IMG/VR virus record: IMGVR_UViG_3300043449_002191
Span: 93,342-157,341 of that record
From: a virus
Direction: 5' to 3' (one strand)
Length of the DNA stretch: 64,000 nt
In this document: piece by piece, positions 4,737 to 61,986 of the stretch
Position numbering within the stretch: the stretch's first letter is position 1
Layout: the number at the start of each line of letters is the position of its first letter
Made by a program: the position numbers and the translations under genes
The notes under the pieces: model-generated
Told to the model about the DNA's origin: nothing
The model's database searches: none
Seen by the model: the letters and a program-made list of their open reading frames with translations, nothing else

Positions 4737-6014
4737 TTAATCCTCAATGCTTGTAAAAGGTTTGATAATTTCGTCCAATGAGCTGTCCTTTTCAGCTCCA
4801 CTTGCGTTAATAAAACGCTGGTCTCCAACGGCATGATCTTCCGTTGTTTCCCACATTACTTGGTTTTGCGGTGAGTTCATAATACTAAAAGTTTGAGCAA
4901 ATGAGTTCGGTGGAACTAAAGCTCCATTTAGAATTAAGAAGGCTCCATTAGGAAGTTGCGTACTAAGAGATAGGTGTACGTGACCTAGAGCAAACACTGC
5001 GTACTTTTCATCATCTTTTAAGGATGAGTTTAATCTATTAATTTGAGTTTCAATTGATCTAATTGAAATTGTATTTCCAGGATTCCCTACATTTAAATTT
5101 GTGTCACCATGTGTAGCGTATACTTTATGACCTAGCGCATCATAAACTACCCAAGGAGTAAGGGGTTGATAGAATTTCACATTCGTAATATGTGAACATG
5201 ATTTTTTAACAGCATAGTAAATGGAAGTCTCTAATGCGTTCCATTTTTGAGATGTAGCTCTGCCATTATGAACAGAAACGTCTCGACCATGATTTCCTAC
5301 GGCAAAATTAACAACTACTTCAGGAAAGTTTTCAGCAAAACGTGCAATACCCTGACTCAGCAAGTGAATAGCACGGCAAACCTGTTCATGTACAGGTGCT
5401 GCAGAAGATTTATCATGAAGCTCATTCTCAATAATGTCTCCTAAAATAGATACGACTAGTTTTGTCTCATCTCTATAGTGATCTTTATATGAGCATACAT
5501 TTTTAACAATCTTAGCAAAAGACCTAGACTCTTCAATCTTACCCCAGTTGTGACCAGTCTCTCTAGCTTCTAGATCGCTACCAAAGTGAAGGTCACTCAA
5601 AAGTAAGTTGAGTACCCTCTTTGTTTTTTTGCCTGTCTTCTTTTTTGAAGAAACTTTATAGGGTTTGATATCCAGCTTAGGCTGTTTCTTTAAGATTTCA
5701 TCCAAGTTTCTAAGAAAAAGATCTCTGTCGCCGATTTTTCTTTCAGTTTCAAGTTGCTTTTTTCTTAGGCTTTTCATGTCGTTAACTGATGCTAAGTCTT
5801 TTTGAATCTCATGCCCAAAATGTACGGTTCTAATTTGAGTAAATCCGCCAAACTTTCGGAGAGCCCACTCAGTTGCAAGCCCTCCGTTAGAGAAATACTC
5901 AGTAATTTTTAACAGAGACGGCTCCACATTTGCGGCCCTTGCCACTTTCTTGATATCAGCTACGATATCCTTAAGAGTCAAATTAGTAGTCTCAGTTTTT
6001 TTAACCTTGCCCAT
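4737..6014 (-). CDS. Calcineurin-like metallophosphoesterase
   Basis: A 425-residue predicted metal-dependent phosphoesterase. The five signature blocks are present in order: SDLHFGSD, LGDIIENEL, FAVGNHGRD, YATHGDT and ALGHVHLS, corresponding to the D-x-H, GD, GNH, GH and GHxH metal-binding motifs. The N-terminal 140 residues precede the catalytic core and contain a helical segment (VADIKKVARAANVEPSLL) that may be a small DNA-binding or adaptor domain. The ATG at 6014 is used because GTGAGG sits 6 nt before it; the in-frame GTG further upstream is part of that ribosome site. It is distinct from the Mre11-like nuclease at 22205. The substrate is unknown: nucleic acid or cyclic nucleotide are both possible. 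Confidence 0.85.
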   Translation of the reverse strand: MGKVKKTETTNLTLKDIVADIKKVARAANVEPSLLKITEYFSNGGLATEWALRKFGGFTQIRTVHFGHEIQKDLASVNDMKSLRKKQLETERKIGDRDLFLRNLDEILKKQPKLDIKPYKVSSKKKTGKKTKRVLNLLLSDLHFGSDLEARETGHNWGKIEESRSFAKIVKNVCSYKDHYRDETKLVVSILGDIIENELHDKSSAAPVHEQVCRAIHLLSQGIARFAENFPEVVVNFAVGNHGRDVSVHNGRATSQKWNALETSIYYAVKKSCSHITNVKFYQPLTPWVVYDALGHKVYATHGDTNLNVGNPGNTISIRSIETQINRLNSSLKDDEKYAVFALGHVHLSLSTQLPNGAFLILNGALVPPNSFAQTFSIMNSPQNQVMWETTEDHAVGDQRFINASGAEKDSSLDEIIKPFTSIED

Positions 6015-6032
6015 TAAATACCTCACTGTTTA

Positions 6033-6042
6033 TAAGATTAGG
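6033..6042 (-). promoter_or_regulatory. CCTAATCTTA motif (leftward copy), putative late promoter element
   Basis: Exact CCTAATCTTA on the minus strand, 10 nt after the stop of the upstream gene and 18 nt before the ATG of the phosphoesterase. The GAGG ribosome site lies at least 6 nt downstream of it. It is the only copy found in the leftward block; the other eight are in the rightward virion block. Confidence 0.6.
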
Positions 6043-11244: not shown

Positions 11245-11252
11245 ATTATACC
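11245..11252 (-). promoter_or_regulatory. GGTATAAT -10-like box upstream of nrdB
   Basis: GGTATAAT on the minus strand, partly overlapping the end of the resolvase gene and 33 nt upstream of the nrdB TTG. I see no -35 hexamer 16-18 nt upstream. It matches boxes at 19219-19226, 19418-19425, 26119-26126 and 48268-48275, all directly upstream of genes. Confidence 0.5.
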
Positions 11253-15818: not shown

Positions 15819-16132
15819 TATTCCTCCAGAGGCAATTGATCAAATCCAGAGCTTTTAATAAACTCTTCAGATGCATCCTTACATATTAAAATTGCAGTTT
15901 CATTCGGCAAATTTAATGTAAGTGCTGATGTACATCCTATAAAAAACCCTAATTGAACATTTTTAGGAATTAAAGCAGAAAGAGCATTTAATCTTTCGTT
16001 TTGATGATTTAAAATAAAAGAGAAAAGCAGCAATAAGACCGCAGTTGTAAATAGGCTTGCCTGTATTTTAGCTTTTTTAATTTCGCTAATATTTTGCCAA
16101 GCATTTTTGATTTTACTTAAAATGTTACTCAT
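15818..16132 (-). CDS. Small single-pass membrane protein
   Basis: A 104-residue protein with one clear hydrophobic helix at residues about 26-42 (LFTTAVLLLLFSFIL) after a lysine-rich N-terminus, so N-in/C-out topology is predicted. The remainder has a second moderately hydrophobic stretch (GFFIGCTSALTLNL). No family is recognised. Its ATG overlaps the GroEL stop by 8 nt (ATGAGTAA) and its own stop overlaps the zinc-ribbon start, indicating tight coupling. Confidence 0.7.
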   Translation of the reverse strand: MSNILSKIKNAWQNISEIKKAKIQASLFTTAVLLLLFSFILNHQNERLNALSALIPKNVQLGFFIGCTSALTLNLPNETAILICKDASEEFIKSSGFDQLPLEE

Positions 16133-17906
16133 TTTCTACCGATCCTCTCTGCCCTGTAGCAGCTTCGAATTGTCTTACAAACTTTTCTTCTTGTTTATCT
16201 GAATCATTATCCCTCTTAAAGGCAACAATACCGCCAAGCGTTCCAAGTAAGGATGCGATTGAAATACTGTTTCTAATAGCTTCAAGTACTGCTGGCGCAG
16301 AATCTAATAAGTCATATGCTGGAACCCATTTTTCTGCTGACAGGTCATAGGTTAACGAATCATCCTTTAAAATGTTGTAAATCTGAGTTAGAATTTCTTC
16401 TGGCACATACCCATAGTTTCTATATAAAGCCTTAACAGGATGAAGCAAGGATTCGCCTAAAATAAGAGCTGCAAGCTTTTTAGGCCAATTATCTGTAATC
16501 TTTTCTGCTCTTACTGTAAGCTCGGCAGCAATTCTTGTAAGAATATACCCACCACCTGGAACAGCACCATGCTTTAAGGCTCCTTTAATCGCCATCCAAG
16601 CGTCCTCAGCTCTATCACGCTTTTCTCTTGTTTCTCCAGACGATGGTCCAGAGATATTGAGTCTTACAATTCCAGCAGTAAGTTTACCAATTCTAACTTC
16701 CAAATCATTTAATTCGTAAATGCTTTCTGGCTTTTCTTTTTGCAGTTTAAGTTCTTCGACTCTGATAGAAATAGCTTCTGGGTCTTCATCAGCAAAAACC
16801 ATTGTTTTATATCGTGATACATCAATTTTCTTAACCCTGGAATTATTGCATACAAATTGTGGGTTAATATCAACAATTGGCCTGTCAATTGGATTAAACA
16901 CTGGAGTTCCAGTATAAGCCTGCAAGTCATACAGGAAATTAGTTCTCCAGTTCTGGATGGCCTTTTCAGGAGTCATTAAAGGTAGGATTTTAACTTTAGA
17001 GTGGGGATGGTTCCAGTTTACGTGCAAGTCTCCAAGAACGATTTCAGAAAATCCATGGGCCACTAATACAATGTTTTTATCCTGTCTGTTTGTCTCATCA
17101 AAATATTCAGAAAGCTTTGTAAATGCTTCAAAAACTTGCGACATATCATTAATGTTACCGTCAAACAGGATCACAATTGGATTGTTTAATTCAACTCCAT
17201 TACCACTCTTATTATTAATAAAGCCATTGGAAAAATTCCTACAAGATTCTTCATATCCACGTTCTACGGTATACCCATTGATTCGCTCAACGATATATTT
17301 TGATGGACCTTGCATTTCTACAATAGTCATGTTCCCTTCTTCTCCGACAAGCTCAAGACCTTCAATAATTGCGTCTGAAAGCTCTAAATCACCATTTCCA
17401 GATAAAGAAGCTACTTTATGTAAAACCTCTTTATAATTATCCCCGTTAATCTTAAGCTTATATTTTTCTACAATCTCTTCCATTACAGGTACAAGCTTTT
17501 CCATTTCCCTAACGATCTTCTGAGGGCTAAGTCTTGGGTTATTTTTTGTGGCATCAGATGTATATTCTGCAATTGCGCTCGAAAGGATTGTTGCTGTAGT
17601 AGTTCCGTCCCCAGCTTCATTTGCAGTTCTAATAGCAGCATCCCTTGCCGCCTCAAGGATAAGCTGTTTAGTAGCTTCTTCATATCCAAGATTTTTAACA
17701 ACAGTCACGCCGTCTTTTGTAATAATTGGCTTCATGTTAACTTCGGAGCGTTCGATCAAAACTTGACGACCACCTGGACCTAAAGTAGCTCCTACCATTT
17801 CAGCAATGTGAGATAGCGTTTTCACAACTTCATCCTGAAGCTTAGTGCTAGATGGAATCATTACTTTTGCTGCAGATTTTGGTTTACCTACTTGAAACAG
17901 ACTCAT
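16125..17906 (-). CDS. groEL: GroEL-like chaperonin
   Basis: A phage-encoded group I chaperonin subunit, 593 residues, longer than bacterial GroEL (about 548). It shows GATLGPGGRQVLIE, ITKDGVTVVKNL, EAGDGTTTATIL (phosphate loop with the catalytic Asp), then GILKLTAG-type LTAGIVRLNISGPSS, EKRDRAEDA and KHGAVPGGGY. It is therefore expected to hydrolyse ATP and fold phage proteins, probably the capsid protein. The ATG at 17906 is preceded by GGAG at 7 nt; the upstream in-frame ATG at 17921 lies before this site. The C-terminus lacks the GGM repeats of bacterial GroEL. A GroES-like candidate is encoded at 21918. Divergence in the apical domain suggests a dedicated client (inference). Confidence 0.95.
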   Translation of the reverse strand: MSLFQVGKPKSAAKVMIPSSTKLQDEVVKTLSHIAEMVGATLGPGGRQVLIERSEVNMKPIITKDGVTVVKNLGYEEATKQLILEAARDAAIRTANEAGDGTTTATILSSAIAEYTSDATKNNPRLSPQKIVREMEKLVPVMEEIVEKYKLKINGDNYKEVLHKVASLSGNGDLELSDAIIEGLELVGEEGNMTIVEMQGPSKYIVERINGYTVERGYEESCRNFSNGFINNKSGNGVELNNPIVILFDGNINDMSQVFEAFTKLSEYFDETNRQDKNIVLVAHGFSEIVLGDLHVNWNHPHSKVKILPLMTPEKAIQNWRTNFLYDLQAYTGTPVFNPIDRPIVDINPQFVCNNSRVKKIDVSRYKTMVFADEDPEAISIRVEELKLQKEKPESIYELNDLEVRIGKLTAGIVRLNISGPSSGETREKRDRAEDAWMAIKGALKHGAVPGGGYILTRIAAELTVRAEKITDNWPKKLAALILGESLLHPVKALYRNYGYVPEEILTQIYNILKDDSLTYDLSAEKWVPAYDLLDSAPAVLEAIRNSISIASLLGTLGGIVAFKRDNDSDKQEEKFVRQFEAATGQRGSVENE

Positions 17907-19212
17907 TATATGCTCCTTCATAATAATCAGTTTTACCGAACTCTATGTTTTTAAATTCTTTTAAAAATTGTTTAGCCTGCTCTTTTAACCAGAGTCTATC
18001 CTGCCTTACTGTTTCAGAGTTTGCTATCTTACTTAACTCGCTATGCAAGAATTTGAACACCTGATAAATCTTGCCAGTTTCATGCTGCTCAAAAACCTCT
18101 TTAACAGTGGCTCCAAAATGCATTTTAATTACGTTTGGTATCATATGGCCAAACTTCTGTATAGCCTGCATCCTAATGTAAAGCTTTGGATTAGTATATT
18201 TACAGAGATCGTAGTTACCATTTGCTACAGGTCTAGCTTTAGGGATATATTCCACCTGTTTTACAGATTCGCCATTCTTAAATATATATTTAACCTTTCT
18301 AACCACATTTGCATAGGCAACTTTGCTAGCTTTTCTTTTCTTCCATACAGCAAGCTCTCTTTTGTATCCAAGAACCTTTAATCCGTCATTACCTTTGGTT
18401 CCGTACTCTCTTTCGTTAACCCACTTAGGGTACATATCTATAAACCATCGGTCAACTAATCCAAGTTCTCCAATTTCCATAAGCTCGTACATATCGCCAG
18501 TTTTGATTTTTTCAATCTGTTTAGATGCATTTTTAATGGCTAGACTTTTTAAATATTCTGATTCGTCTAAACCTATAAAATCAAAGCTCATTCTTTTTAA
18601 TGAAAATGGGGTGTGATTAATAAAAGGCAAGTCTTTTTGCTTAACTTCATTTCCACCATTTAAAGCAAGGCCAAGCCAAACTCTAATAATTCTATCCGAA
18701 GTACACCCACGCTTTCTGTTGTCAAACTTTTTTACGCTTGGTTTTGTAACAATATAAGATGCAATAAAGCCTTTTTTTTCTAAATCAGCAATAATATTAG
18801 TAACTTGTCTGCCAGATATTTTTAATATTTCAGCTATACGATTGTTGTTGATTTTTGTAAGGCCAGAATTCTGAAGGCTTCGTGCTAAAAGAATCCCATA
18901 TACACGTCTATGGTTTTTATGCTTTTCTGTTGGGTATACTGCTGTTATTAATGGAATTTTGCCTGCTGATGGAACTTCTGTTTTTTTACATTCATTTGAT
19001 AAGATGACTCCAGCAGTATTATCTGAGAAGATGTCACTTACAAACTTGTTTTTTGGAGCTACAGTTTTAATAACTTTAACCCTATGCTTAATACCAACTT
19101 CATTTGTTCGATCTTCCCACTTAGAATCCAGGTAGACTTCTGAACTTAATTCAAAATCCTCTCGACTAAGACCAATGGCTACGTTTTTATACTGGTAAAC
19201 AAATGATTTCAT
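17884..19212 (-). CDS. Winged-helix DNA-binding protein, possible replication or regulatory protein
   Basis: A 442-residue protein. Residues about 110-155 contain a helix-turn-helix with wing: NNRIAEILKISGRQVTNIIA followed by DLEKKGFIASYIV. The rest is basic and has no enzyme motif that I recognise. The start is the ATG at 19212; there is no ribosome binding site, and a GGTATAAT box ends 6 nt upstream, so the message may be leaderless. It is the first leftward gene at the divergent region, a common position for a replication initiator or a regulator, but this is positional inference. It overlaps the GroEL start by 23 nt. Confidence 0.7.
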   Translation of the reverse strand: MKSFVYQYKNVAIGLSREDFELSSEVYLDSKWEDRTNEVGIKHRVKVIKTVAPKNKFVSDIFSDNTAGVILSNECKKTEVPSAGKIPLITAVYPTEKHKNHRRVYGILLARSLQNSGLTKINNNRIAEILKISGRQVTNIIADLEKKGFIASYIVTKPSVKKFDNRKRGCTSDRIIRVWLGLALNGGNEVKQKDLPFINHTPFSLKRMSFDFIGLDESEYLKSLAIKNASKQIEKIKTGDMYELMEIGELGLVDRWFIDMYPKWVNEREYGTKGNDGLKVLGYKRELAVWKKRKASKVAYANVVRKVKYIFKNGESVKQVEYIPKARPVANGNYDLCKYTNPKLYIRMQAIQKFGHMIPNVIKMHFGATVKEVFEQHETGKIYQVFKFLHSELSKIANSETVRQDRLWLKEQAKQFLKEFKNIEFGKTDYYEGAYNESVSSR

Positions 19213-19218
19213 GATGCT

Positions 19219-19226
19219 ATTATACC
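19219..19226 (-). promoter_or_regulatory. GGTATAAT box, leftward, leaderless-type promoter
   Basis: Minus-strand GGTATAAT with 6 nt (AGCATC) between its end and the ATG of the winged-helix gene. This places the expected transcription start at the A of ATG. There is no -35 hexamer at normal spacing. Confidence 0.5.
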
Positions 19227-19417: not shown

Positions 19418-19425
19418 GGTATAAT
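19418..19425 (+). promoter_or_regulatory. GGTATAAT box, rightward, leaderless-type promoter
   Basis: TGGTATAAT, a perfect extended -10 (TGnTATAAT), with 6 nt (AAACAC) before the helicase ATG. There is no Shine-Dalgarno site and no -35 hexamer. It mirrors the box on the other side of the region. Confidence 0.55.
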
Positions 19426-19431
19426 AAACAC

Positions 19432-20913
19432 ATGAAAATGCTACTTAAAAACCCTTCTCAAATAATTCTTCCTTCAGATTCAGAGGCTGTAAAAAGCTTT
19501 TTGACATTTACAGACAGGTCCGTAAACTATCAAATTAAAAGGCTTAAAGATAACTACAGGTGGAAAAACTCTGATCCAGAATCATTTCAAGAAAGGCTAG
19601 AGACTTTAAAGGATCAAGCTAAAGTCTGTCTTCTTGATTATGACGAAGATGGTAATGCAGTTACCTACTCAGGTCTAGCTAATGATTTGAACGGTAGATT
19701 TGGATGGGAGTTGCCAGATAATGAAAGTAAACTAACGGACTCAATTATACCCTGGAATAAACCCCCAGAATACTCTCTTAGGTACTATCAAAGAGATGCA
19801 GTGGATGCTTTATTTAAAGTAAAACATGGGGCTGTCAGTTTGCCTACTGGTTCTGGAAAGTCTGCAATAATTTACACTATCTGTAAAGAAAACCCAGTCC
19901 AGACTCTTATTATGACTCCCTCTAAGAGTATTACTAATCAGATTTATAATGAGTTTATTACACTATTTGGTAAAAAGCGTGTTGGTAAGTACGGTGACGG
20001 TAAAAAAGAAATTGGAAAATTATTTACTGTAGCCACTGGACAAGCTTTAACTAGGGTAGAAAAAGGAACTGAAGAGTATGAATTTTTATCAAAAACTCAG
20101 CAGTTTATAGCAGACGAAAGCCACACTACGCCAGCAGAAACATTTGAAAAGGTTTGTCTTGGAGTAGCCAAAAATTCCCAGTTTAGATTCTTTGTGTCAG
20201 CCACTCAAATTAGAACCGATGGATCTGAGCTTGTATTAAAAGGTATTACTGGACCTATAGTATACGCCAAATCATTTAGAGAGCTTGTGAATGAAGGTTA
20301 CTTAGCTAAGCCAATAGTTAGAGTAATTAAAGCGCCTGCAACTGGTTTTTCTTATACCGACATCAACAAAGAAACAAGAGCCCAACTTTACCTTAATCCA
20401 GAGGTTAACAGGATTGCTGCTGAATTTGCAACAAAAGCCGTAACAATAGCCAATAGACCCACCGTAATCTTAATAGAAGAGTTTAGGCAGTTTGTGGCTC
20501 TTAAAAACCATATTGGAATACCGTTTTCATTTGCTCATGGCGGAGCTTCTGATAGAGAAGATGCTTCTGGAGTAAAATTAAAAGATATTTTACCACAAGA
20601 ATACTGGAAATGCGATGTAGAAGAAGAGATTAGGAAGTTTAATAGTGGAGAAACTAAACTCCTTATTGGAACGTCTGCAATCTCTACTGGCGTTGATATT
20701 AAACCGACAGGCTGCATAATTTACCTCCAAGGCGGTATGTCAGAGATTTCCCTTAAACAGGGATTAGGCAGAGCCACTAGAATGGTTCCAGGAAAAATAG
20801 ATTTTATTGCAGTAGATTTTTTAGTAGAAGGTTCACCAGCAATGGAGAGACACTTTCAAGCGAGACTTAATATATATCAGGAATTAACCGACGACATAGA
20901 ATACTTGGGATAA
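19432..20913 (+). CDS. uvsW: UvsW-like SF2 DNA helicase
   Basis: A 493-residue superfamily 2 helicase related to T4 UvsW, which unwinds branched and R-loop structures. Motif Q-like RYYQRDAVDALF is followed by motif I LPTGSGKSA, Ia LIMTPSKSI, II ADESHTT, III FVSATQI, V IGTSAISTGVDI and VI KQGLGRATRM. About 115 N-terminal residues precede the helicase core, as in UvsW. The start is the ATG at 19432; a second ATG two codons later is possible. It is the first gene of the rightward block and is followed after 2 nt by the sigma-like gene. It probably works with the Rad50/Mre11-like nuclease and RuvC-like resolvase. Confidence 0.92.
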   Translation: MKMLLKNPSQIILPSDSEAVKSFLTFTDRSVNYQIKRLKDNYRWKNSDPESFQERLETLKDQAKVCLLDYDEDGNAVTYSGLANDLNGRFGWELPDNESKLTDSIIPWNKPPEYSLRYYQRDAVDALFKVKHGAVSLPTGSGKSAIIYTICKENPVQTLIMTPSKSITNQIYNEFITLFGKKRVGKYGDGKKEIGKLFTVATGQALTRVEKGTEEYEFLSKTQQFIADESHTTPAETFEKVCLGVAKNSQFRFFVSATQIRTDGSELVLKGITGPIVYAKSFRELVNEGYLAKPIVRVIKAPATGFSYTDINKETRAQLYLNPEVNRIAAEFATKAVTIANRPTVILIEEFRQFVALKNHIGIPFSFAHGGASDREDASGVKLKDILPQEYWKCDVEEEIRKFNSGETKLLIGTSAISTGVDIKPTGCIIYLQGGMSEISLKQGLGRATRMVPGKIDFIAVDFLVEGSPAMERHFQARLNIYQELTDDIEYLG

Positions 20914-20915
20914 AT

Positions 20916-21908
20916 ATGAAAGATCAAAAATTAGTAGATTTTAGAGTATTTGTTGGCAAGATGGATAGCATCTTGAAAGAAAATGAAAAAGAAATTGGTA
21001 AAAGCCAAAGACAGCTTTTAAATGACCTATTTTCCGTAGAAAAGCAGTTTAAAGCCTTGTTACTAAAATCAAAAGAAGGCGAAAAGGTATATGAAGATTT
21101 TATTAATTTTATCTTAGAAGAAAAAGAGAATACTTTATCATGTAGGCCATACTTTAGAGAAAGACAGGATACATTTACAAAGCGTATTTTTAATCTATTT
21201 AAGAAAAAAGACAGTAAGAGATTACAAAAATATAAAATAAATTACAAGTTTATGAAATGGGCAATAGAAAAATATACAGGAAAAAATAAAAGATCAATGA
21301 GGAAGCTAATAAAAGAAGCTGAGCATATTAGAAAAACCCTGTGCGAAAACAACCTACCGCTTGTGTTGAATAAAGTTAGAATGTTCTGGTCAAAAACACC
21401 TCAAAAACATTTGGATTATATGGATTTAGTACAGACCTCTACAGAGGGACTTCTTATTGCCATAGATAACTTTGTACCCCCATATAATACTGTTTTCAGG
21501 TCTGTGGCGATTGGCAGAATGACTTTGAATATGATGGAAGATTATAATGACACTATGGTTAAGCTTTCTCCTAAAGATAAGCGTATATTATACAGGGCTA
21601 ATAAAGCCAAGAATATAAAAGAAAACGTATCTAAAACAGAGTTAACAGACTTTGTAAATGAGTCTTTTAAAGGTGTTAGTTCAGAAGATATTGAGAACTT
21701 GCAAAAAGCTACTACAGAAATTGTAGATTTATATTCTCCTAGCTCTAGTGGACTAGCTCCAGTAGAACAAATTGCAGATAAGAACTCAATAGAAGATATT
21801 GTTGAAAAAACTCAATTAAAAGAAAGACTTATGTATTTAATGAAAAACTTAACCCTATTAGAAAGCAAAGTCTTATTGCTTAAACATGGGGAATTTGAAG
21901 GACTTTAA
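20916..21908 (+). CDS. Sigma-70 family factor lacking region 4.2
   Basis: A 330-residue putative phage sigma factor. About 120 N-terminal residues are lysine/glutamate-rich and unassigned. Residues about 145-215 match sigma region 2: ENNLPLVLNKVRMFW, DYMDLVQTSTEGLLIAIDNF and FRSVAIGRM, the core-binding and -10-reading segment. A region 3-like stretch (VKLSPKDKRILYRANKAK) follows. The C-terminus begins region 4 (LMYLMKNLTLLESKVLLLKH) but stops before the helix-turn-helix of region 4.2, which reads -35 elements. The stop overlaps the AAGGAGG site of the next gene. It may direct RNA polymerase to -10-only promoters, as T4 gp55 does (inference). Confidence 0.8.
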   Translation: MKDQKLVDFRVFVGKMDSILKENEKEIGKSQRQLLNDLFSVEKQFKALLLKSKEGEKVYEDFINFILEEKENTLSCRPYFRERQDTFTKRIFNLFKKKDSKRLQKYKINYKFMKWAIEKYTGKNKRSMRKLIKEAEHIRKTLCENNLPLVLNKVRMFWSKTPQKHLDYMDLVQTSTEGLLIAIDNFVPPYNTVFRSVAIGRMTLNMMEDYNDTMVKLSPKDKRILYRANKAKNIKENVSKTELTDFVNESFKGVSSEDIENLQKATTEIVDLYSPSSSGLAPVEQIADKNSIEDIVEKTQLKERLMYLMKNLTLLESKVLLLKHGEFEGL

Positions 21909-21917
21909 GGAGGAAAA

Positions 21918-22208
21918 ATGTCTGCTGTAACAAAAAAAGGTATTTTAGCTGTATCACAGCCACAGTTCAAAAAAGTAGAAGCCGAGCTTAAAGGCGGTAT
22001 TGCAGTTATTGCTCAAAGAATTAACTTAATCAAGGTTGATTTGGTTTTGGGGTATAATTTTAATGGAACTGAACTAACGGCTGGGGATAAAATTATCCTT
22101 AGAGGAGACAGTGGACTACAACCATGGGCTAAGCAAGTCGTTTCTTTAGATAATAAAGAATTTGTTTTGTGCCCAGAAGATCAAATTTTAGGATATGAAA
22201 AAGCATGA
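21918..22208 (+). CDS. GroES/gp31-like co-chaperonin (putative)
   Basis: A 96-residue protein with the length and layout of GroES. KGGIAVI resembles the hydrophobic GGIVL part of the GroES mobile loop. LTAGDKIIL followed by VVSLDNKEFVLCPEDQILG resembles the C-terminal V-GD-V / V-DGEEY / E-DIL pattern of GroES. The phage also encodes GroEL (16125-17906), which makes a dedicated cap plausible. AAGGAGG lies just before the ATG. The resemblance is by eye and the N-terminal part is divergent, so this is a moderate call. It overlaps the nuclease start by 4 nt. Confidence 0.6.
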   Translation: MSAVTKKGILAVSQPQFKKVEAELKGGIAVIAQRINLIKVDLVLGYNFNGTELTAGDKIILRGDSGLQPWAKQVVSLDNKEFVLCPEDQILGYEKA

Positions 22209-26087: not shown

Positions 26088-26097
26088 CCTAATCTTA
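26088..26097 (+). promoter_or_regulatory. CCTAATCTTA motif, copy before the 26144 gene
   Basis: Exact motif 9 nt after the terminase stop. It is followed by AATCTT-ATAGA-AAGATT, a 6-bp hairpin overlapping the motif, and then by a separate GGTATAAT box at 26119. Confidence 0.6.
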
Positions 26098-26118
26098 TAG
26101 AAAGATTAATAGTTTTGT

Positions 26119-26126
26119 GGTATAAT
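26119..26126 (+). promoter_or_regulatory. GGTATAAT box (TGGTATAAT)
   Basis: An extended -10 sequence 17 nt before the ATG at 26144, without a recognisable -35. A GAGG ribosome site lies between it and the start. Confidence 0.5.
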
Positions 26127-29210: not shown

Positions 29211-30098
29211 ATGCAGCTCTCTCTTTTTCAAAGACAGCTAATAATGAATAAGGTCGATGAGCTATTTGATTCAGCAAAAGCTCGTTTACAAGGACGTTTT
29301 TTCAAAGGTCCAGCAATATACTTTGAAGTAATTAATGCAACTCACCCTGAAGAAACTATTGAAGGCATATATACCCACGCCCTTAAAACTATGTTTGGAC
29401 CAACTGCCACTACTTCCTCCGAAAGATCAATAGAACACCTTTCTGAAATAGCTGGAAATTACATTGACGCTCAAAAAATGAAAGTTAAAAATTATGTAAT
29501 TGCAGATGTTTTAAACGCTAAAACCGCAAGCGAGGCATATAAAGCTGTATCTGACAATTTAGGTAAAGCCCAGAAGTACATGGAAATGCTTGTTGCTAAT
29601 GAAACCAAGCTGATACAGTCTTACGCCTCAAAAGAAGGTGTTTCTCGCATTGCTGCAGATATGAAAGACGATAACCCTACTATAGTCTGGTTTGGGCCAG
29701 TAGATAATAAAACTTGTAAGCATTGCAAAGAAATGTATCATGACGATGCTATGCCACTTAAACCAAAACCTTGGAAAATGTCACAATTAAGGGACGGATA
29801 CTTTAAACCAAAAGAATGGGACAGAGCTTCTGTTTTCCATAATGCTCACCCTAGATGCAGACACGCTATGAGTTATGTACCTAAAAATATGGGGTTTAAT
29901 GATAGAGGGCAGATTGAGTTTAAGCATTTTGGATACGACTATTACCAGGATTATTATTCTACACAAAAAAGTCAACCAGAATATGGCGAACCATTAAAAA
30001 AAGAGCTAGACCTTAGTCAATTCTTTATGGATTATGACGAATATATTGAATATCAGATTCAGCATGAAAAGGCTCATCACAAAAACTCCAAACCCTAA
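29211..30098 (+). CDS. Head morphogenesis protein (SPP1 gp7 / Mu F-like)
   Basis: A 295-residue minor capsid protein. The C-terminal half carries the family pattern of paired cysteines and a conserved HPRC: DNKTCKHCKEMY and then HNAHPRCRHAMSYVP, which resembles a zinc-dependent MuF signature. The N-terminal half is helical. It directly follows portal, as in most tailed phages. The extended C-terminus is rich in Tyr, Asp and His. Its stop codon lies inside a CCTAATCTTA motif. Confidence 0.8.
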   Translation: MQLSLFQRQLIMNKVDELFDSAKARLQGRFFKGPAIYFEVINATHPEETIEGIYTHALKTMFGPTATTSSERSIEHLSEIAGNYIDAQKMKVKNYVIADVLNAKTASEAYKAVSDNLGKAQKYMEMLVANETKLIQSYASKEGVSRIAADMKDDNPTIVWFGPVDNKTCKHCKEMYHDDAMPLKPKPWKMSQLRDGYFKPKEWDRASVFHNAHPRCRHAMSYVPKNMGFNDRGQIEFKHFGYDYYQDYYSTQKSQPEYGEPLKKELDLSQFFMDYDEYIEYQIQHEKAHHKNSKP

Positions 30099-30103
30099 TC
30101 TTA
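30094..30103 (+). promoter_or_regulatory. CCTAATCTTA motif, copy before the protease-kinase gene
   Basis: Exact motif whose TAA is the stop codon of the MuF-like gene. The next ATG is 22 nt downstream with GGAG between them. Confidence 0.6.
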
Positions 30104-31832: not shown

Positions 31833-32437
31833 TGAAAGTCTATGTCATTAAAAGCGTAAACTCAGACATCCCCTTGGCTGAAATCAGAACTGATGGCAGA
31901 TCTGTTGATTTTATTGTAGATAATACTGAAGGCCAACTTCCATCAAAAGTGGGCAATAGCCTAGAAGCGCTTAAAAAATACCTAAAGTCTTCTAGTATCT
32001 ACTTAGAAGAACCAACTCAGCCTACAGCACATTTAATCAGATACGTTCTATCAAACGGAGATGTTGCTGAAATCACTACTGACGGTAAAACCTGCCTTTT
32101 AAATGGTAACCTGCTAACTGAGCAAGAAAAATATGCTCTATTTGATGCTATTAAAAGAAAAGAAATTCAAGTATCTAGAAAATCTGATGATATACAACCA
32201 GTTTTACCTAAAGCGCAAAAGCCTTTAGAGGAAATTAAGCCAAAACAACTGCACCCTACTATTCAATCTCAAATGAAAGAATACTTTGAAGAAAAAAGAA
32301 AGCAATTGGAAAAATCAACACCAGATATGGATCATGAGATTGAAGATTCTGTGGCTAAGATGGCCGGAGACAGACAAGAAGTAGGCTTTGTAAGGGACCT
32401 TTTGTATTGGTTAAAGCACGGAGGCAATCGTGAATAA
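31832..32437 (+). CDS. Hypothetical protein with internal duplication
   Basis: A 201-residue protein whose start overlaps the previous stop as TAATG. The first half holds two related units of about 50 residues, each with the pattern AEIxTDGxxxxxxxN (LAEIRTDGRSVDF and VAEITTDGKTCLL), pointing to a duplicated small beta domain. The second half is a charged helix (QMKEYFEEKRKQLEKS). No family is recognised. Its end overlaps the 2068-residue gene by 8 nt (GTGAATAA), so the two are coupled. Confidence 0.65.
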   Translation: MKVYVIKSVNSDIPLAEIRTDGRSVDFIVDNTEGQLPSKVGNSLEALKKYLKSSSIYLEEPTQPTAHLIRYVLSNGDVAEITTDGKTCLLNGNLLTEQEKYALFDAIKRKEIQVSRKSDDIQPVLPKAQKPLEEIKPKQLHPTIQSQMKEYFEEKRKQLEKSTPDMDHEIEDSVAKMAGDRQEVGFVRDLLYWLKHGGNRE

Positions 32438-35400
32438 GACTTTTTTTGACGAAAACACCTCTCCACAAGAGCTTGAATCTACAATAAATCAATATATTGA
32501 TACACCAAAAGATAGTCACCCAGAAGACTTATCAGAAAAGGTATATGAAGCTGCCGCACATCCTCAAATGCCAGCAGCGCATTTATCTAAACTTTACCTT
32601 CATAACATGGCAAAACCAGAAAATACTCCAGAAAATATAGGCAGCCATGAAAGTATAGACTCAGATTTAACTGAAAAAATACTGCAAAATCTAAATACAC
32701 CTAAAGATATACATGAGCAGCACCTTGCAGCTACTCATTCTTCTAATAGCGAGCATCATAACTATGCTATTTCAAATCCTGCAGTATCTAATGATGTTAT
32801 TCAGTCATTTTTAGAAAATAGAGCAAAATCGGAATCTGCTTGGAATATGCCAGCAGAAGAAAATGTCCATCCCGATGTTGGGTTTAATCTATTTAATAAA
32901 GGCCGTGAACTTAAAGACATTGATCCAAAGCATTCAGAAGCACTTAAAGAATATGGATTAGATATTCTACAAAATTCTAAAAAACATACAGACGAAACAT
33001 TAAAGAGAGTAGTAGATGCTTATCATAAAGGCCAGCCATTAAATAGCGGCTTTTTGGGCAATCTTATCTCAAAAAATAAAAATTTGACAAAAGACCAGTT
33101 AAATCAAATTCACAATAAGCATACATCATCTGAAGAGTTTGATCCTGATTATGGTAGCAGTGTTATTTCTTCTATAGCAGAGCATCCTAATACTGATCCA
33201 TCATTACTATCACTAATCGCTAACGATAAAAAGTATAAAAACCATGCATCTGATGCTTTAAAAAATCCTGCGCTTCCTATGGAAGTATTCAATAATAAAA
33301 TTTCAAAATTACCTAAAAGAGGAAATGAACATTACGATCATAATGATGAAATTACTGAATCTTTACTGCAAAATCCAAATATAACAAAAGACCAAGTGTC
33401 AGAACTTTTTAAAAAAGGGTTTAAATCAGCGTTAAATCATGAAAAAACTGATGAGTCATTAATTGAAAATCATTGGAATAGCTCTGACAAAAGCGCAGAT
33501 GCTGCGAATAAAATTTTGCGAACAAAAAACTTGCCTGAAAGTGTCTTAAAAGAGCTTGTTAATCATAAAAATCAAGACGTAGCAATTGAAGCGTTAAATC
33601 ATAAGAATGCTACAGAAAACGTAGTAAATGAAGGTTTAAAAAGAAAAGCTAAAGCAGTACAAGAAGAGGCAGCTAAGCACCCTCTTGTAAAAGATAGAGC
33701 TATTACTGAAAAGCTAAAAAATAAATCAGTAAACGCCTCTACTATAGCTTCTGATAATGATTATAAAGAAAAGTTTGATAAACTTTCCGATTTGGATAAA
33801 TCTAATCTAATTAACCACTTCCATGAAAAGCTCTCAGGCTCAGACATTGATGCAATTGCTAAGAATTCAAAAGAAAAGAAGTCTGATGTATTATTGGCAA
33901 AAAGATTCTTAGCTAGGGATAAAAGTGTACCACAACACATCAAAGACCATCATTCAGATGAGTTTTTTGATATGTTTACTAAAGAATTTGGAACTAATTC
34001 AGATATAAACGTAGATAGAGATGATTTACACAAAAGGCAGTTATTCCAAACCGCAAGAGACCTTTTATCAGATGAAAATCCAACAGCGCAGAAAAGATTG
34101 CTAGAGCATACACCTTTGATGTCAGCGTTAGGCCCTGATGTGGCATCTAAATCTAAAAATCCTGATTTTATTAAAAAGCTAGTCAAAAGAGCTAAAGACG
34201 CTGATGGTGAATCAATAATAGATCGCTGGGGGCACCCAAGACCATATAATTCGTCTGACTTAAGATTATCTGTATTAAAAAATCCAAATCTAAGCCTAGA
34301 AGATCTTAAAGGTCACTTGTCCGACCCGTCTTTTAATGATTTTGATAAATATGCTTTGAATAATATTATGGATAAAACAAAAGGTTCCCCAGAAAAACAA
34401 GCAGAAACACTAAGTTTTTTAAAAAATTTAAACAGACCAGAAGTAAACAAACACCTGCTGTTAGGCAGTTTTTTGACTGGAAATGACCAAGAATCAGCAT
34501 TTGAAAACTTAGAGTCAAAATACGATAAAAGTGAATTTTTAAAGGAAAATGCAGACAAAATTTCTCCATCGTTAGCTGACAGAATTTTAAGTGGCGAATT
34601 TAATGATAATTACACACAAATGAAACATAATCTTTTTAGTGGATTAGAAAATCCCCCTAAAGAAATTGAAGATAAAGTTTTAAATCATTTAGACGAACTT
34701 TCTAAAGGCCCTGTAGCCGATTTAACTGATTCGTTAAACAGTATCTCTAATAGTTTTAAAAAATCTGAAAGATGGAAAAATAACGCTAAAGAGCTGTCAG
34801 CATCAAATCCAACTTTAGCTTCTCAAATGTATTCTCATCATATTGATGTGCTGCCAGCAGAAAAACAAAAAGATGCGATTAGCAACCTTGAAGCTTATGA
34901 AGATTCATTGGGCGTAAGTCCAGAACAAAAAGATATGAGAAAAAAAGCTTTTTGGAAAGCTCAATTGCTAAATATAAATAGGTTAGGTAGAGTATTTGAA
35001 AAAGGAGAATTAGATCATTTAGCAGATCTGCAGAGTACAGATGAAGACGAAACCGCTCTTTCTATCAAATCCCTTTTATTAAACAAACGATTATTGTCAG
35101 ATAACAAAGCTAGCGAAATAGTAGCCAAAGACCCTTCTTTATTTGAAGATTATTATAACTCATTACATAAAATAGATGATAAAATTAAATCTATTGATAG
35201 CGTAATAAATAATCCTAATTCAGATAAAAACTTGCTTTTTAAAGCTGTAGGCAAAATAAATCCTACACATTTATCAGAATATAAAATTGATAAAGATAAC
35301 CAAAATGAAGTTGCAAAGAAATTAGCCAATAAAATTGCTGATTTAAGTAAACTTCAAGATCAAAAACACTTACAGACAGCAGTTCAGGGGCTTACACGCC

Positions 35401-38400
35401 CTATTAAAGGGCATTTAACTGAGGGTGTTTCTGAATCTTTAATTAAAAAAGCTGCCGATGAAATCTTAAAAAACGATAAAATACCCCAAGATAAAAAAGT
35501 AAGAATGTTGTCAGCAGTTTCTTCTGCTATGGATGTCAAAGGGGTAACACATCAAGCAACTTCTAAATTTTTAACTAAGGCTGTATCTGAATCAGAAGAT
35601 GTCAATACACTGCTACCTGCTATCCAGTCTTCTACATTTGATTTTGCAACAAAAACTTCTATGGCTAAAAAAGCAAATGAAATGCTATCAAACCCAGAAG
35701 CTATAGCTAAAGTTGATACCCAAAAATTGCTAGACTTTACTACTAATGCAAACTGTACGGCAGAAGTTAAAACTTTGGTAGCTAACAAAGCAACTGAAGA
35801 ACTTTTTCAAGAACAAGACCTTGATAAACAAGTAGAAAAAGCTGAGAAATTAGCATCAGCGCTAAACTACTCATCAAACGATAGCAGCTTTAATTCTGAC
35901 GCTAGAATTTACCATTTAGCCGAACATCCAAATCCAGAAGTAAGAATGGTCGCCTATAAACAAATGAGATCCACTCTTTCTTCAAACGGAATAGAAAGCA
36001 ACATTGAACTATACAAGAATATGCCAGATGATATTAAGCTTCATCCAATTGATATTGATCAAAATGAAGCAAATAATGCTGATTTTGTAGAAGCATCGAC
36101 TAAAGGCTGGAAATTAGATACATTAATTGTTAATGGTGGAGTTTTAAACAAAGAAAACTCAAAAGTAATGATTAATAGAGCTATTGAGTCCGAAGATCCT
36201 GCCCATAAAAGATTGGCACTTCAATCTTTAATGTCATCTGTGTATACAGACAAAAATGACCTAACTAAACTTGCCAGAGCATCTAGCGAAGAAGACCTAC
36301 TAAAGTCTCTTTCAATAGTCCAAAATCCATTCCAACTAAATGCACATTTTGCTTTATCTGAATTGATGGATAAAGTAGATCAAAAAATGGAAAATCCAGA
36401 GATGGTAATTCATGGTGCTAAATTTTTAGACAAAGAGCATACAAAAAATGTACTTTCTATCCTAAGCGATATTGCCAGTAATATAGGAAAAACTATATTT
36501 GATGAAGGCACTTACGATATTAACGCAAAAAACGAAGTGTATGAAGAGGTTATTAACAAGCATACGGACCATTCCAATACTATTTTGAATAATCTTAAAA
36601 ACCAAATTTTAGAAGAACCATCTGAAACTAAAGTTAAAGTAAATAGTTTAATCAATAACCTAAGAAATATTGTTGCGAATAGTGGGTTAAAGTTTAGCAA
36701 AGAAACTCACAATAAGCTAATGGAGTCCTATAATTTACATAAAGACCTTTATGAAAAATTGGGTACAAGATTTAACACTCCAGTTCTATTAGGTGGAATT
36801 ATTGAAAAAACAGAAGGATTAAATTCCGAAGATTGGAAATCTCTTTTTGAAAAAACTCCTGAATCCAAATATTTTATTGGACATAGATCATCTATAGGAA
36901 CAGACATTTCAGATCATCTATCTTTTTCTAAAGAGGATCAAAATTGGAGTCATTCACCTGTAGCTGTTCAATTTGCTTTAGATAAACTTGATTCCCAATC
37001 TTTAGATAAGCATGGCAAAAGACTTTTTACCGAGGCTTTAAATGCAACAAATGGAAGTCCTAATCAAAAATATGTTATTGAGACTGGTTTAAGTAAAATG
37101 GGCGATAGGCTTAATCATAAAGACTTATTGGACATAAGAAAAGCTTTACCAGAGTTTAGTCAACATTTTGATACCGTAGCTATTAAATCTGGTGCAGGCG
37201 GAAAAGAGCTTTTAGCCGATTCAGTCAAAAAAGTGGAAGAACTTGCTAAAAACAAAGAACAATCTAGCGTTGAGCTTTTATCTGCAATATGCAGAAGTCG
37301 CCACTTAGACGAAAATCTAGCAAATAAAATGTTGGAAATTCATGATAATCACCCAGAAGTAATGGAAGAACTCGCTAACAATAACTCAGTTCACCCTAAC
37401 GTATTGCTTAAAATTCAAAACGAAGCCGCTAAATTGTCACCAAGAACATCTAAAAAGATTGTGGACGCAGTTATTTCAAACTCAAATACTCCATTTGATG
37501 TTGTTAAAAAGGCATTTGAAACTACTCAAAAAGAGTATAAACCATATTTCATGAGCAATACTTCATTTAACCCTGCGCTAGATAACTCTAAATGGGGACC
37601 TAGCCTATTAAGAGAAATGCCAGTAGTCTTACCTGAAGGGCTTCAAAACGTAGATGGGAACTCTTTAAAGCAAAAAACTTCAGAATTTTCTACCGAGTAT
37701 TCAAATAAACGTAAAAAAGCCCTTAATGTAATGGCAGCTATACCTGATACTGGTATTAACTGGGTTGAATTTAAGCGACAAAATCCGTCACTAGAGGCTG
37801 GATTACCAAAAGAAGTTAAAGATATTTTTACTAGAAATGCTAACACTCCAATAACAAAAGAGAATATGGTATCTCTGGTAAAATCTATGGATTCAGAGCA
37901 AAAGAAAAGAGAGTACCACTTAGCGTATTCATCTTGGAGTGGGGTACAAACTCATACTGGAGGCAAAAATCTTGTTATGACTTTAAATCTATCTCAGCAA
38001 ACTGAAGAAGAGCTTAAAAAAGACCCCAAAGTATTTGCTTTATATAAAAAAGTTACTCAAATTGCAAATGGAATATCTGGTAAATCTATAGGAGCGCACC
38101 CAACAACACCATATGCTGTATCTTGGTCTAGAGTTGATACTGATCAAAACGGTGAAGCCTGGGTAATTGAAGAGCTTCAAGCAGATGCTGTACAAAAATT
38201 TAGATCTAATTTCAGAAGAATACTCAACAATATGGCCTCTGGGTCAAATATTGATGGCCATAGTATAACTTCAGAAGAAATGAAATCAATGGTTAAGACT
38301 ATTGAAAAAACTTTTGATGGATGGGACCGAGCTACTATAAATGCAGTTATAGAAAATGCAAAGGCTCATGGAATTAAAAAGCTTTATATGCACGGTCTTG

Positions 38401-38636
38401 GAATCAGAAGCTGTATGTCTGGTGGAGAAATCGGCGGTCCCAAATACACTAAAGACTATATTAACCCAAATATTAAAAGGCTTTATGACCAATTGCCTCA
38501 AGAGTATGGTTTTTCAAAGTGTAAATACTCAGATTACCCCAAAAATAACGCAAAAAGATTCAACGATGATCTTAAGAGCAGAGAATTAAATGATGATTGT
38601 TGGGTACTTGACTTAGAGGAGAAGCCTAAAGCCTAA
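32430..38636 (+). CDS. Giant 2068-residue repeat protein with polyvalent-type C-terminal domain
   Basis: The largest gene here. It starts at GTG with GGAGG 5 nt upstream. Most of the length is made of degenerate helical repeats of about 26 residues, with a NPxhxxxhhxxhh core: NPAVSNDVIQSFLENRA, HPNTDPSLLSLIANDKKY, NPNITKDQVSELFKKG, NPNLSLEDLKGHLSD. This is the same pattern as the near-identical repeats of the Nudix protein at 61994. It probably folds as a long alpha-solenoid. The last 170 residues differ: WVIEELQADAVQKFRSNF, AHGIKKLYMHGLG and YDQLPQEYGF resemble a domain found in phage polyvalent proteins (EEIQSDW...YD..LP). Its location in the head module suggests a virion or ejected protein (inference). 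No enzyme activity is assigned. Confidence 0.75.
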   Translation: MNKTFFDENTSPQELESTINQYIDTPKDSHPEDLSEKVYEAAAHPQMPAAHLSKLYLHNMAKPENTPENIGSHESIDSDLTEKILQNLNTPKDIHEQHLAATHSSNSEHHNYAISNPAVSNDVIQSFLENRAKSESAWNMPAEENVHPDVGFNLFNKGRELKDIDPKHSEALKEYGLDILQNSKKHTDETLKRVVDAYHKGQPLNSGFLGNLISKNKNLTKDQLNQIHNKHTSSEEFDPDYGSSVISSIAEHPNTDPSLLSLIANDKKYKNHASDALKNPALPMEVFNNKISKLPKRGNEHYDHNDEITESLLQNPNITKDQVSELFKKGFKSALNHEKTDESLIENHWNSSDKSADAANKILRTKNLPESVLKELVNHKNQDVAIEALNHKNATENVVNEGLKRKAKAVQEEAAKHPLVKDRAITEKLKNKSVNASTIASDNDYKEKFDKLSDLDKSNLINHFHEKLSGSDIDAIAKNSKEKKSDVLLAKRFLARDKSVPQHIKDHHSDEFFDMFTKEFGTNSDINVDRDDLHKRQLFQTARDLLSDENPTAQKRLLEHTPLMSALGPDVASKSKNPDFIKKLVKRAKDADGESIIDRWGHPRPYNSSDLRLSVLKNPNLSLEDLKGHLSDPSFNDFDKYALNNIMDKTKGSPEKQAETLSFLKNLNRPEVNKHLLLGSFLTGNDQESAFENLESKYDKSEFLKENADKISPSLADRILSGEFNDNYTQMKHNLFSGLENPPKEIEDKVLNHLDELSKGPVADLTDSLNSISNSFKKSERWKNNAKELSASNPTLASQMYSHHIDVLPAEKQKDAISNLEAYEDSLGVSPEQKDMRKKAFWKAQLLNINRLGRVFEKGELDHLADLQSTDEDETALSIKSLLLNKRLLSDNKASEIVAKDPSLFEDYYNSLHKIDDKIKSIDSVINNPNSDKNLLFKAVGKINPTHLSEYKIDKDNQNEVAKKLANKIADLSKLQDQKHLQTAVQGLTRPIKGHLTEGVSESLIKKAADEILKNDKIPQDKKVRMLSAVSSAMDVKGVTHQATSKFLTKAVSESEDVNTLLPAIQSSTFDFATKTSMAKKANEMLSNPEAIAKVDTQKLLDFTTNANCTAEVKTLVANKATEELFQEQDLDKQVEKAEKLASALNYSSNDSSFNSDARIYHLAEHPNPEVRMVAYKQMRSTLSSNGIESNIELYKNMPDDIKLHPIDIDQNEANNADFVEASTKGWKLDTLIVNGGVLNKENSKVMINRAIESEDPAHKRLALQSLMSSVYTDKNDLTKLARASSEEDLLKSLSIVQNPFQLNAHFALSELMDKVDQKMENPEMVIHGAKFLDKEHTKNVLSILSDIASNIGKTIFDEGTYDINAKNEVYEEVINKHTDHSNTILNNLKNQILEEPSETKVKVNSLINNLRNIVANSGLKFSKETHNKLMESYNLHKDLYEKLGTRFNTPVLLGGIIEKTEGLNSEDWKSLFEKTPESKYFIGHRSSIGTDISDHLSFSKEDQNWSHSPVAVQFALDKLDSQSLDKHGKRLFTEALNATNGSPNQKYVIETGLSKMGDRLNHKDLLDIRKALPEFSQHFDTVAIKSGAGGKELLADSVKKVEELAKNKEQSSVELLSAICRSRHLDENLANKMLEIHDNHPEVMEELANNNSVHPNVLLKIQNEAAKLSPRTSKKIVDAVISNSNTPFDVVKKAFETTQKEYKPYFMSNTSFNPALDNSKWGPSLLREMPVVLPEGLQNVDGNSLKQKTSEFSTEYSNKRKKALNVMAAIPDTGINWVEFKRQNPSLEAGLPKEVKDIFTRNANTPITKENMVSLVKSMDSEQKKREYHLAYSSWSGVQTHTGGKNLVMTLNLSQQTEEELKKDPKVFALYKKVTQIANGISGKSIGAHPTTPYAVSWSRVDTDQNGEAWVIEELQADAVQKFRSNFRRILNNMASGSNIDGHSITSEEMKSMVKTIEKTFDGWDRATINAVIENAKAHGIKKLYMHGLGIRSCMSGGEIGGPKYTKDYINPNIKRLYDQLPQEYGFSKCKYSDYPKNNAKRFNDDLKSRELNDDCWVLDLEEKPKA

Positions 38637-38641
38637 TCTTA
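38632..38641 (+). promoter_or_regulatory. CCTAATCTTA motif, copy before the 38659 gene
   Basis: The TAA within the motif is the stop of the 2068-residue gene. The AAGGGG ribosome site begins 6 nt after the motif and the ATG is 17 nt after it. Confidence 0.6.
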
Positions 38642-39220: not shown

Positions 39221-39230
39221 CCTAATCTTA
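39221..39230 (+). promoter_or_regulatory. CCTAATCTTA motif, copy before the capsid operon
   Basis: Exact motif 48 nt before the ATG at 39279. It is the only copy not adjacent to a stop codon: it lies over 120 nt from the previous gene, so it is not simply a feature of gene ends. Confidence 0.65.
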
Positions 39231-48267: not shown

Positions 48268-48275
48268 GGTATAAT
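48268..48275 (+). promoter_or_regulatory. GGTATAAT box before the ClpP operon
   Basis: TTTTTGGGGTATAAT placed between the terminator and the ClpP-like gene, 18 nt before the ATG, with AAGGGA between. There is no -35 hexamer: the upstream position is occupied by the terminator stem. Confidence 0.6.
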
Positions 48276-48293: not shown

Positions 48294-48905
48294 ATGAAAA
48301 AAATGCAAAGAGACGATATAGATAAATTTTTTGATTACGAGATTTATTTACCCACCAGGACTTTGTATATGGGTTCGGCGTCTTATGACGAAGAAAATGG
48401 CGAATCTGGCACTGATGGTGCTATGGCCGAAAGAATTATCAAAGGGCTTCACATTTTAGACTCTTCCGCACCTTCAAATGATCAACCTATTACTATTATA
48501 ATGAACAATCCAGGTGGTGATGAATATCATGGGATGGCTATTTACGATGCAATAAAGTCTTGTAAAAATCATGTTACAATCAAAGTTATCGGTCATGCCA
48601 TGTCTATGGGCTCTATTATTTTACAAGCTGCAGACCATAGGGTTATGTCTCCTAATTCACGAATGATGATTCACTACGGAACTAAGAGTATTCAAGATCA
48701 CGCTAAAAACTTCTACAAATGGACGGACGAAGGTAAGAAATTTGACTCCTGGATGGAGCATCTATTTTTAGAAAAAATCAGAGAAAAGAATCCGCATTTT
48801 ACTTTAGCTAAAGTAAAACATATGTGCAATTTTGACACCTTTCTATCGGCAACAGAGGCTATTCAGTTGGGGCTTGCTGATAAAATATTAGGAGAAGATG
48901 AATGA
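48294..48905 (+). CDS. ClpP-like serine protease
   Basis: A 203-residue protein of normal ClpP length. The catalytic triad is complete: Ser in HAMSMGSIIL, His in SRMMIHYGTKS, and Asp in FDTFLSATEAIQLGLAD, aligning with S97, H122 and D171 of E. coli ClpP. The handle and substrate strand appear as IIMNNPGGDEYHGMAIYDA. It would form a barrel protease that needs an unfoldase, either host ClpX/ClpA or a phage one. It is the first gene of a short operon that also encodes a second ClpP (49466), a membrane protein and a small protein. The pair may form a mixed barrel (inference). Confidence 0.9.
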   Translation: MKKMQRDDIDKFFDYEIYLPTRTLYMGSASYDEENGESGTDGAMAERIIKGLHILDSSAPSNDQPITIIMNNPGGDEYHGMAIYDAIKSCKNHVTIKVIGHAMSMGSIILQAADHRVMSPNSRMMIHYGTKSIQDHAKNFYKWTDEGKKFDSWMEHLFLEKIREKNPHFTLAKVKHMCNFDTFLSATEAIQLGLADKILGEDE

Positions 48906-49171: not shown

Positions 49172-49469
49172 AGTAGTCTCCTTTAAGGCAAATATAAACC
49201 CTAGCCTGGATATACCAGCTAATCAGTCTCATCCAATCTACGATGAGTACGGGTCATTAGTTGGAGCCTTCAATATCAAAGAAGAAGGCGCAGTGATTGG
49301 GTTTTTGTCTACAAAAGGGTACGAGCTATCATTAGAAATATCTCTAGGCGAACCCTTTTACATTACATTAAATCCTGGGGACGATGGAAAAATAGAAAAA
49401 GGTCTAGTAACTAGAAATAAAATTGGTATTAATTCAGCAAAAATCTCTAAAATTGAGGAGTCGTTATGA
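49164..49469 (+). CDS. Hypothetical protein
   Basis: A 101-residue protein starting at GTG, which overlaps the previous stop as GTGAATAG and has GGAAGAGG upstream. It looks like a small beta domain (VVSFKANINPSLDIP, GAVIGFLSTKGYELSLEIS, EPFYITLNPGDDGKIEKG). It lies between the two ClpP genes and overlaps the second by 4 nt. No family is recognised. Confidence 0.65.
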   Translation: MNRVVSFKANINPSLDIPANQSHPIYDEYGSLVGAFNIKEEGAVIGFLSTKGYELSLEISLGEPFYITLNPGDDGKIEKGLVTRNKIGINSAKISKIEESL

Positions 49470-50236: not shown

Positions 50237-50246
50237 CCTAATCTTA
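50237..50246 (+). promoter_or_regulatory. CCTAATCTTA motif, copy before the 50267 gene
   Basis: Exact motif 3 nt after the ClpP stop and 20 nt before the ATG; GAGAGGG lies between them. It also marks the return from accessory genes to virion genes. Confidence 0.6.
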
Positions 50247-55172: not shown

Positions 55173-55177
55173 TCTTA
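55168..55177 (+). promoter_or_regulatory. CCTAATCTTA motif, 5 nt before an ATG
   Basis: The TAA is the stop of the transglycosylase gene. Only 5 nt (ATATT) separate the motif from the ATG at 55183, and no ribosome site is present. If the motif is a promoter, the message is leaderless. Confidence 0.6.
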
Positions 55178-56578: not shown

Positions 56579-56588
56579 CCTAATCTTA
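56579..56588 (+). promoter_or_regulatory. CCTAATCTTA motif, copy before the 56612 gene
   Basis: Exact motif 2 nt after the previous stop and 23 nt before the ATG, with TAGGAG between. Confidence 0.6.
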
Positions 56589-61976: not shown

Positions 61977-61986
61977 CCTAATCTTA
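61977..61986 (+). promoter_or_regulatory. CCTAATCTTA motif, 7 nt before an ATG
   Basis: Exact motif 4 nt after the previous stop. Seven nt (TGTTAGT) separate it from the Nudix ATG at 61994 and no ribosome site is present, again suggesting a leaderless start if this is a promoter. Confidence 0.6.

Follow-up and report, generated by a model that had tools for sequence, protein, structure and literature searches.

The stretch of DNA analysed here (the window; 64,000 nucleotides, positions 93342–157341 of a 157,341-base virus record) encodes a sigma-70-type factor of 330 amino acids at 20916–21908 on the plus strand, with an ATG start and a C terminus that reads LTLLESKVLLLKHGEFEGL up to the stop codon. 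The first gene of its operon is a DNA helicase gene (19432–20913, plus strand), present in all 10 relatives compared and adjoining the sigma gene in Myxococcus phage Mx1. A GGTATAAT extended -10 box at 19418–19425 (plus strand) lies 6 nt before the helicase ATG (19432), a leaderless spacing. A small gene weakly resembling GroES follows directly after the sigma gene (21918–22208, plus strand), and a GroEL-like phage protein, also found in Mx1 and most relatives, is encoded at 16125–17921 on the minus strand. The order helicase, sigma, small gene, SbcD-like gene, terminase and portal is shared with Mx1, a cultured member of the clade with a contractile tail. Its sigma WNM70309, annotated only as a putative sigma, is the ortholog and nearest annotated relative, with 33% identity, equal length and the same ending.

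The 330-aa ORF matched PHROG 351, 'RNA polymerase sigma factor' (E = 9e-7), and weakly matched region 2 in Pfam; Sigma70_r2 was likewise matched weakly in 9 of 14 members of the sigma family (best 0.0016). A profile of the family retrieved primary sigma factors from the PDB (E = 2e-8), in an alignment extending from region 2 to about residue 564 of E. coli sigma70. In an AlphaFold model of moderate confidence (pLDDT 75; linker 269–291 disordered, <50), residues 7–329 align with about 94–568 of E. coli sigma70, and the best rigid structural match (VIA-align) was Caulobacter sigma70 domain 2 (Z 12.8, 3.7 Å, 182 residues). The PDB profile and the domain 2 match both identify region 2, the part that binds core and reads the -10 element, and the profile alignment continues through region 3 and its 3.2 linker up to region 4.1. 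The full-length r.m.s.d. is large because domain placement is undefined, so that the assignment of individual domains depends mainly on the sequence profile. On that basis the protein is a primary-type sigma, with a region-1.2-like helical N-terminal domain (about aa 7–135, with conserved RPYFRERQD), region 2 (about aa 136–214, from profile and structure), region 3 (about aa 219–267, three helices in the model), a 3.2-like linker (about aa 268–291) and region 4.1 helices (aa 292–324), and without region 4.2. The earlier note had recognized region 2 and the start of region 4, with the stop before 4.2, which holds; region 3 and the region-1.2-like N terminus have to be added to its account.

Regions 2 and 3.0 belong to the best-conserved parts of the protein. 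One invariant residue of the family is F194, which aligns with the first F in the FSTYATWW of sigma70. The alignment shows no counterpart of the W433/W434 melting pair of sigma70; a near-invariant G-R stands in its place (aa about 194–204). The conserved helix pattern in region 4.1 (L312, E316, K318 and L320) indicates that 4.1 is still in use, and these helices may hold the beta flap.

The sigma ORF stops where region 4.2 would begin, and the next gene begins 9 nt after the stop, so that no 4.2 can be appended. Relatives were collected in two IMG/VR scans: 15 came from the first, with two-row alignment A1, and about 46 from the second, with A3, some of them being near-duplicates; neither a single-sequence scan of viral contigs nor a search of genome contigs returned a relative. 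The same stop place occurs in all of about 40 close relatives, Mx1 included. The C terminus of every family member, including those with identity as low as 31%, lies 0 to about 20 residues past the 4.1 helix L..LT..E.K[VL]L.LKG, and the helix-turn-helix (HTH) of region 4.2, a sigma-70 feature, was found in none of about 40 family members. The two weakest matches (L137 and L138), sigma factors of more distant kinship, retain an intact 4.2 helix (RVKQVEKNALAKI and RVRQIEKKALEEL). One further candidate, L023, was discarded as spurious, its ORF at the match being about 101 aa long and not aligning. Because the stop is shared across relatives, the truncation is an old common trait of the clade rather than an error or a strain mutation, a doubt that the earlier note had raised. 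Region 4.2 occurs in most sigma-70 members and is missing from T4 gp55, so it is not required for membership. The sigma gene is among the few genes common to all 10 relatives compared, and the clade consists of phages of roughly 140–170 kb.

The window also holds nine exact copies of CCTAATCTTA, the late box (0.29 expected), precisely the number previously counted, and the whole 157-kb record holds 22, all but one on the plus strand and nearly all just 5' of a same-strand start codon. In an unseeded analysis, the core CCTAATCT was the most enriched upstream octamer in six genomes with GC contents of 33–54% (G000, G001, G002, G004, G005 and G006); in G007 the top octamer was CTTAATCT instead. 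The core AATCTT is enriched, with its register unchanged, in G009 and Mx1 (CAATCTT in Mx1, 11 versus 1.4 expected), and the Mx1 late box, NNCAATCTT, differs from that of group A in lacking CC. Two fragments with few structural genes gave eight AATCTT sites versus 1.1 expected (G010) and none (G008). Of the 132 late-box sites in seven genomes taken together, 113 have a start on the same strand within 80 nt downstream, where chance would give about 5%; the gene calls are crude, and many box-bearing genes lack functional annotation. None of the open-licence papers listed in a literature search describes the box string from a phage.

Nine of the late-box sites end (counting from the end of CCTAATCT) exactly 7 nt before an ATG, and neighbouring short spacings are rare. 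At the same offset, the remaining 104 sites carry a purine in 88 cases, compared with a background of 56% (p = 3e-10). The leaderless spacing and the purine point to one base, where +1 was placed, giving the register A-17, any base at -16, C-15, C-14, T-13, A-12, A-11, T-10, C-9, T-8, T-7 and A/T-6. Three annotated start codons of Mx1 (36563, 75289 and 121405) fall at the predicted +1. Hexamers that agree with TTGACA in at least five of six positions, at a spacing of 15–19, occur at 4 of 113 late boxes versus 3.1 in shuffles. No column upstream of -17 exceeded 0.12 bits, the only upstream information being that at A-17.

A protein that displaces host sigma on core and shuts off host transcription, leaving the late box to another reader, would be compatible with the loss of the W433/W434 melting pair. 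Against such a decoy role, regions 2 and 3.0 are among the parts conserved best, the box has the register of a -10 element with A-11 and T-7 as used by a sigma, and phrog_351 detects no other sigma of the same kind in eight genomes, the present protein being the sole strong match in each; we therefore hold this role to be extremely improbable.

Eight of the late boxes in the window are on the plus strand. They lie at 26088–26097 (before gene 26144 and the portal operon; seven relatives have the box at their ortholog), 30094–30103 (before the head maturation protease gene, 30126), 38632–38641 (before gene 38659), 39221–39230 (before gene 39279, which precedes the major capsid gene at 40591), 50237–50246 (before gene 50267; present at the ortholog in 8/8 relatives tested, Mx1 included), 55168–55177 (with leaderless spacing, the ATG standing at the predicted +1, 55183), 56579–56588 (before gene 56612) and 61977–61986 (7 nt before the ATG at 61994). 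The ninth, at 6033–6042 on the minus strand, lies upstream of a non-structural, exonuclease-like gene (4737–6026, minus strand). Box-bearing genes include the tail sheath and genes preceding it, baseplate proteins, the head maturation protease, a virion structural protein and the endolysin, along with those that precede portal and major capsid (functions assigned partly through the Mx1 annotation). The late region also contains a 2068-aa ORF with a GTG start (32430–38636, plus strand) that is conserved in six relatives. Recurrence of the box at orthologous genes exceeds chance (p from 3e-11 to 0.0065), with 17 versus 4.5 expected in G005 (p = 3e-11) and 6 versus 2.4 expected in Mx1 (p = 0.0065).

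A second promoter class is formed by GGTATAAT, with nine copies in the window versus 2.0 expected. Five are intergenic, at the positions already reported: 11245–11252 (minus strand; host-type extended -10), 19219–19226 (minus strand; leaderless spacing, divergent from the helicase–sigma operon), the box at 19418, 26119–26126 (plus strand, in tandem with the late box at 26088) and 48268–48275 (plus strand, before gene 48294). The remaining four apparently lie within coding sequence. The class carries T-17, A/G-16 and G-14, a standard extended -10, occurs on both strands and in leaderless cases, and has no TTGACA-like -35; both classes thus lack a -35 element, as the earlier note had stated. A -10 box stands 5–7 nt before an ATG at 19219, 19418 and 55168 in the window and at 36032, 80934 and 30699 in the record, and some leaderless mRNAs would appear to be made from both promoter classes. 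The genes at 48294–48905 and 49466–50233 (both plus strand) each match the Mx1 Clp protease-like protein, and the first of them follows the box at 48268.

The earlier note had left two motif classes as possible targets of the protein. Its reading the GGTATAAT class is conceivable in so far as promoters without a TTGACA-like -35 are usable by a sigma without 4.2. However, T-17 R-16 n G-14 is the canonical housekeeping extended -10, the box precedes the sigma operon itself by 6 nt and also heads a 33-gene minus-strand cluster of small ORFs, and the class is scarce or absent before genes in G005, G009 and Mx1, all of which carry the sigma. We regard this assignment as quite improbable. Since GGTATAAT is of housekeeping type and lies upstream of the sigma operon, the candidate target narrows to CCTAATCTTA, which the sigma is predicted to read. 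The GGTATAAT class is unmatched to the truncation of the phage sigma and is probably an ordinary extended -10 read by host sigma; preceding the sigma operon, it should be active while the phage sigma is still absent, and the box at 19418 is the probable host-sigma promoter from which the phage sigma is made.

The two classes also meet at single sites. At record positions 83337–83353 (L007:3337–3353), GGTATAAT and the late box overlap divergently in ATTATACCTAATCTTA with CC in common, and at 26088–26126 of the window they stand in tandem, 31 bp apart. At such overlapping or tandem boxes, host and phage sigma could exclude each other.

We also considered a split sigma, in which a separate small phage protein supplies the 4.2 HTH. 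Small proteins with a RERIRQ-type, sigma4.2-like helix are encoded in G005 and G009 (L040:17825–18262, plus strand; L070:15623–15988, minus strand), and an HTH protein of LuxR type, about 73–82 aa, is common to G000 and G001. No such protein occurs clade-wide, however, and the late promoters offer no -35 signal for it to read, which makes this arrangement very improbable. A shared stand-alone 4.2 protein was dropped as an explanation, the searches having turned up no such protein in most of the genomes. In G000 the LuxR-type protein (L005:19715–19939, minus strand; 73 aa) lies under a GGTATAAT box and has an ortholog in G001; it is possibly a stand-alone transcription regulator.

Taken together, we consider it likely that the protein is a late sigma that recognizes the CCTAATCTTA box through regions 2 and 3, that has lost region 4.2 and whose operon is started by host sigma. 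Host sigma would first transcribe the helicase–sigma operon from the GGTATAAT extended -10 promoter. The phage sigma would then bind host core through region 2 (on the beta' clamp helices) and the 3.2 linker, with the retained 4.1 helices probably on the beta flap, and would read the long extended -10 box, from -17 to -6, through regions 2.4 and 3.0; with no -35 contact to make, region 4.2 could have been lost. In a second step it would switch on the capsid, tail, baseplate and lysis genes. Conservation of the truncation, domain content, promoter class, register and conservation at orthologous late genes were established by computation; from these we infer the reading of the late box by the sigma, the binding of the flap by 4.1 and the timing.

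Recognition of -10 and extended -10 DNA is the task of regions 2.4 and 3.0 in known sigma factors. The late box is a long extended -10 for which no other DNA contact is needed, and so fits a sigma without 4.2. The 2.4/3.0 segment reads LSPKDKRILYR for the majority of group A, LSPTERRILYL for G007 and HFYPxDK for the Mx1 group. Lineage-specific differences in the box at positions -15 to -13, among them C-14 in group A and T-14 in the G007 type, accompany differences in this segment, a suggestive pattern of one or two events. Motif and sigma are co-inherited within one clade, which is no proof of reading, and another phage regulator could read the box.

If this reading is right, nature has provided a sigma that lacks exactly the -35 reader, paired with base-mapped promoters that apparently lack the -35 element. 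The pair would offer a clean test of the role of region 4.2 and of whether an extended -10 suffices for a whole late programme, and a second system for comparison with T4 late transcription. The late box further enables annotation of late operons in a clade whose genes are mostly unassigned. The system is experimentally tractable, as Mx1 grows on laboratory Myxococcus xanthus; its genome paper did not describe promoters (PMC10720576).

The nearest functional parallel is T4 gp55, a late sigma without region 4.2 that serves promoters consisting of a -10-like element with no -35 (PMC7892883). Both are phage sigmas without region 4.2, and both late promoter sets are -10-only and precede structural genes. 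The T4 system suggests an arrangement in which the sigma needs a flap-bound, gp33-like coactivator, a clamp or both, partners that replace the role of 4.2: at the -10-only T4 late promoters, gp33 sits on the flap in the place of sigma4 (PMC7892883, PMC2988020), and many small proteins of the present phages have no assigned function. Neither a T4-type (gp45-type) clamp (PF02916) nor a beta clamp (PF02768) was found encoded in eight genomes, however, and the sigma, unlike gp55, keeps regions 3 and 4.1, so that its own 4.1 may fill the flap site. We judge dependence on such partners unlikely, while giving it some weight, since a clamp might be supplied by the host.

The likeness to gp55 that the earlier note had drawn does not extend to the proteins. 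The two families form separate PHROGs (234 for gp55, 351 here), and hhalign of one against the other gave a probability of 0.1%, which is no match (gp55 was represented by database record L088, and X01804 was a 100% match of the initial gp55 query). Whereas gp55 has 185 aa and comprises only region 2 and a helix-loop-helix, without region 3, the present protein has regions 1.2, 2, 3 and 4.1; both belong to the wider sigma-70 superfamily. The T4 late box spans -13 to -6, a span that the present box covers, provided that +1 is right, with a different sequence.

A phage-encoded sigma is also known from phiEco32 and phage 7-11, where a short -10-type motif lies upstream of later genes (PMC4331800). 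The phiEco32 gp36 and 7-11 sigmas (PHROG 1740) differ from ours in having 214 aa and an ECF annotation, with a TGATGT core in 7-11. With sigma70/sigmaA the protein shares the fold and the domain order 1.2-2-3-4.1, but it has neither 1.1 nor 4.2, and its -10 and extended -10 sequences are different. We see about an even chance that these phages run late transcription independently of the T4 type and free of a clamp, with a near-complete primary-type sigma minus 4.2 (and 1.1), a 10–12 bp box read via regions 2 and 3, and leaderless late mRNAs in several operons. The sigma family looks like a new variant of phage late sigma, and a second solution beside T4 gp55.
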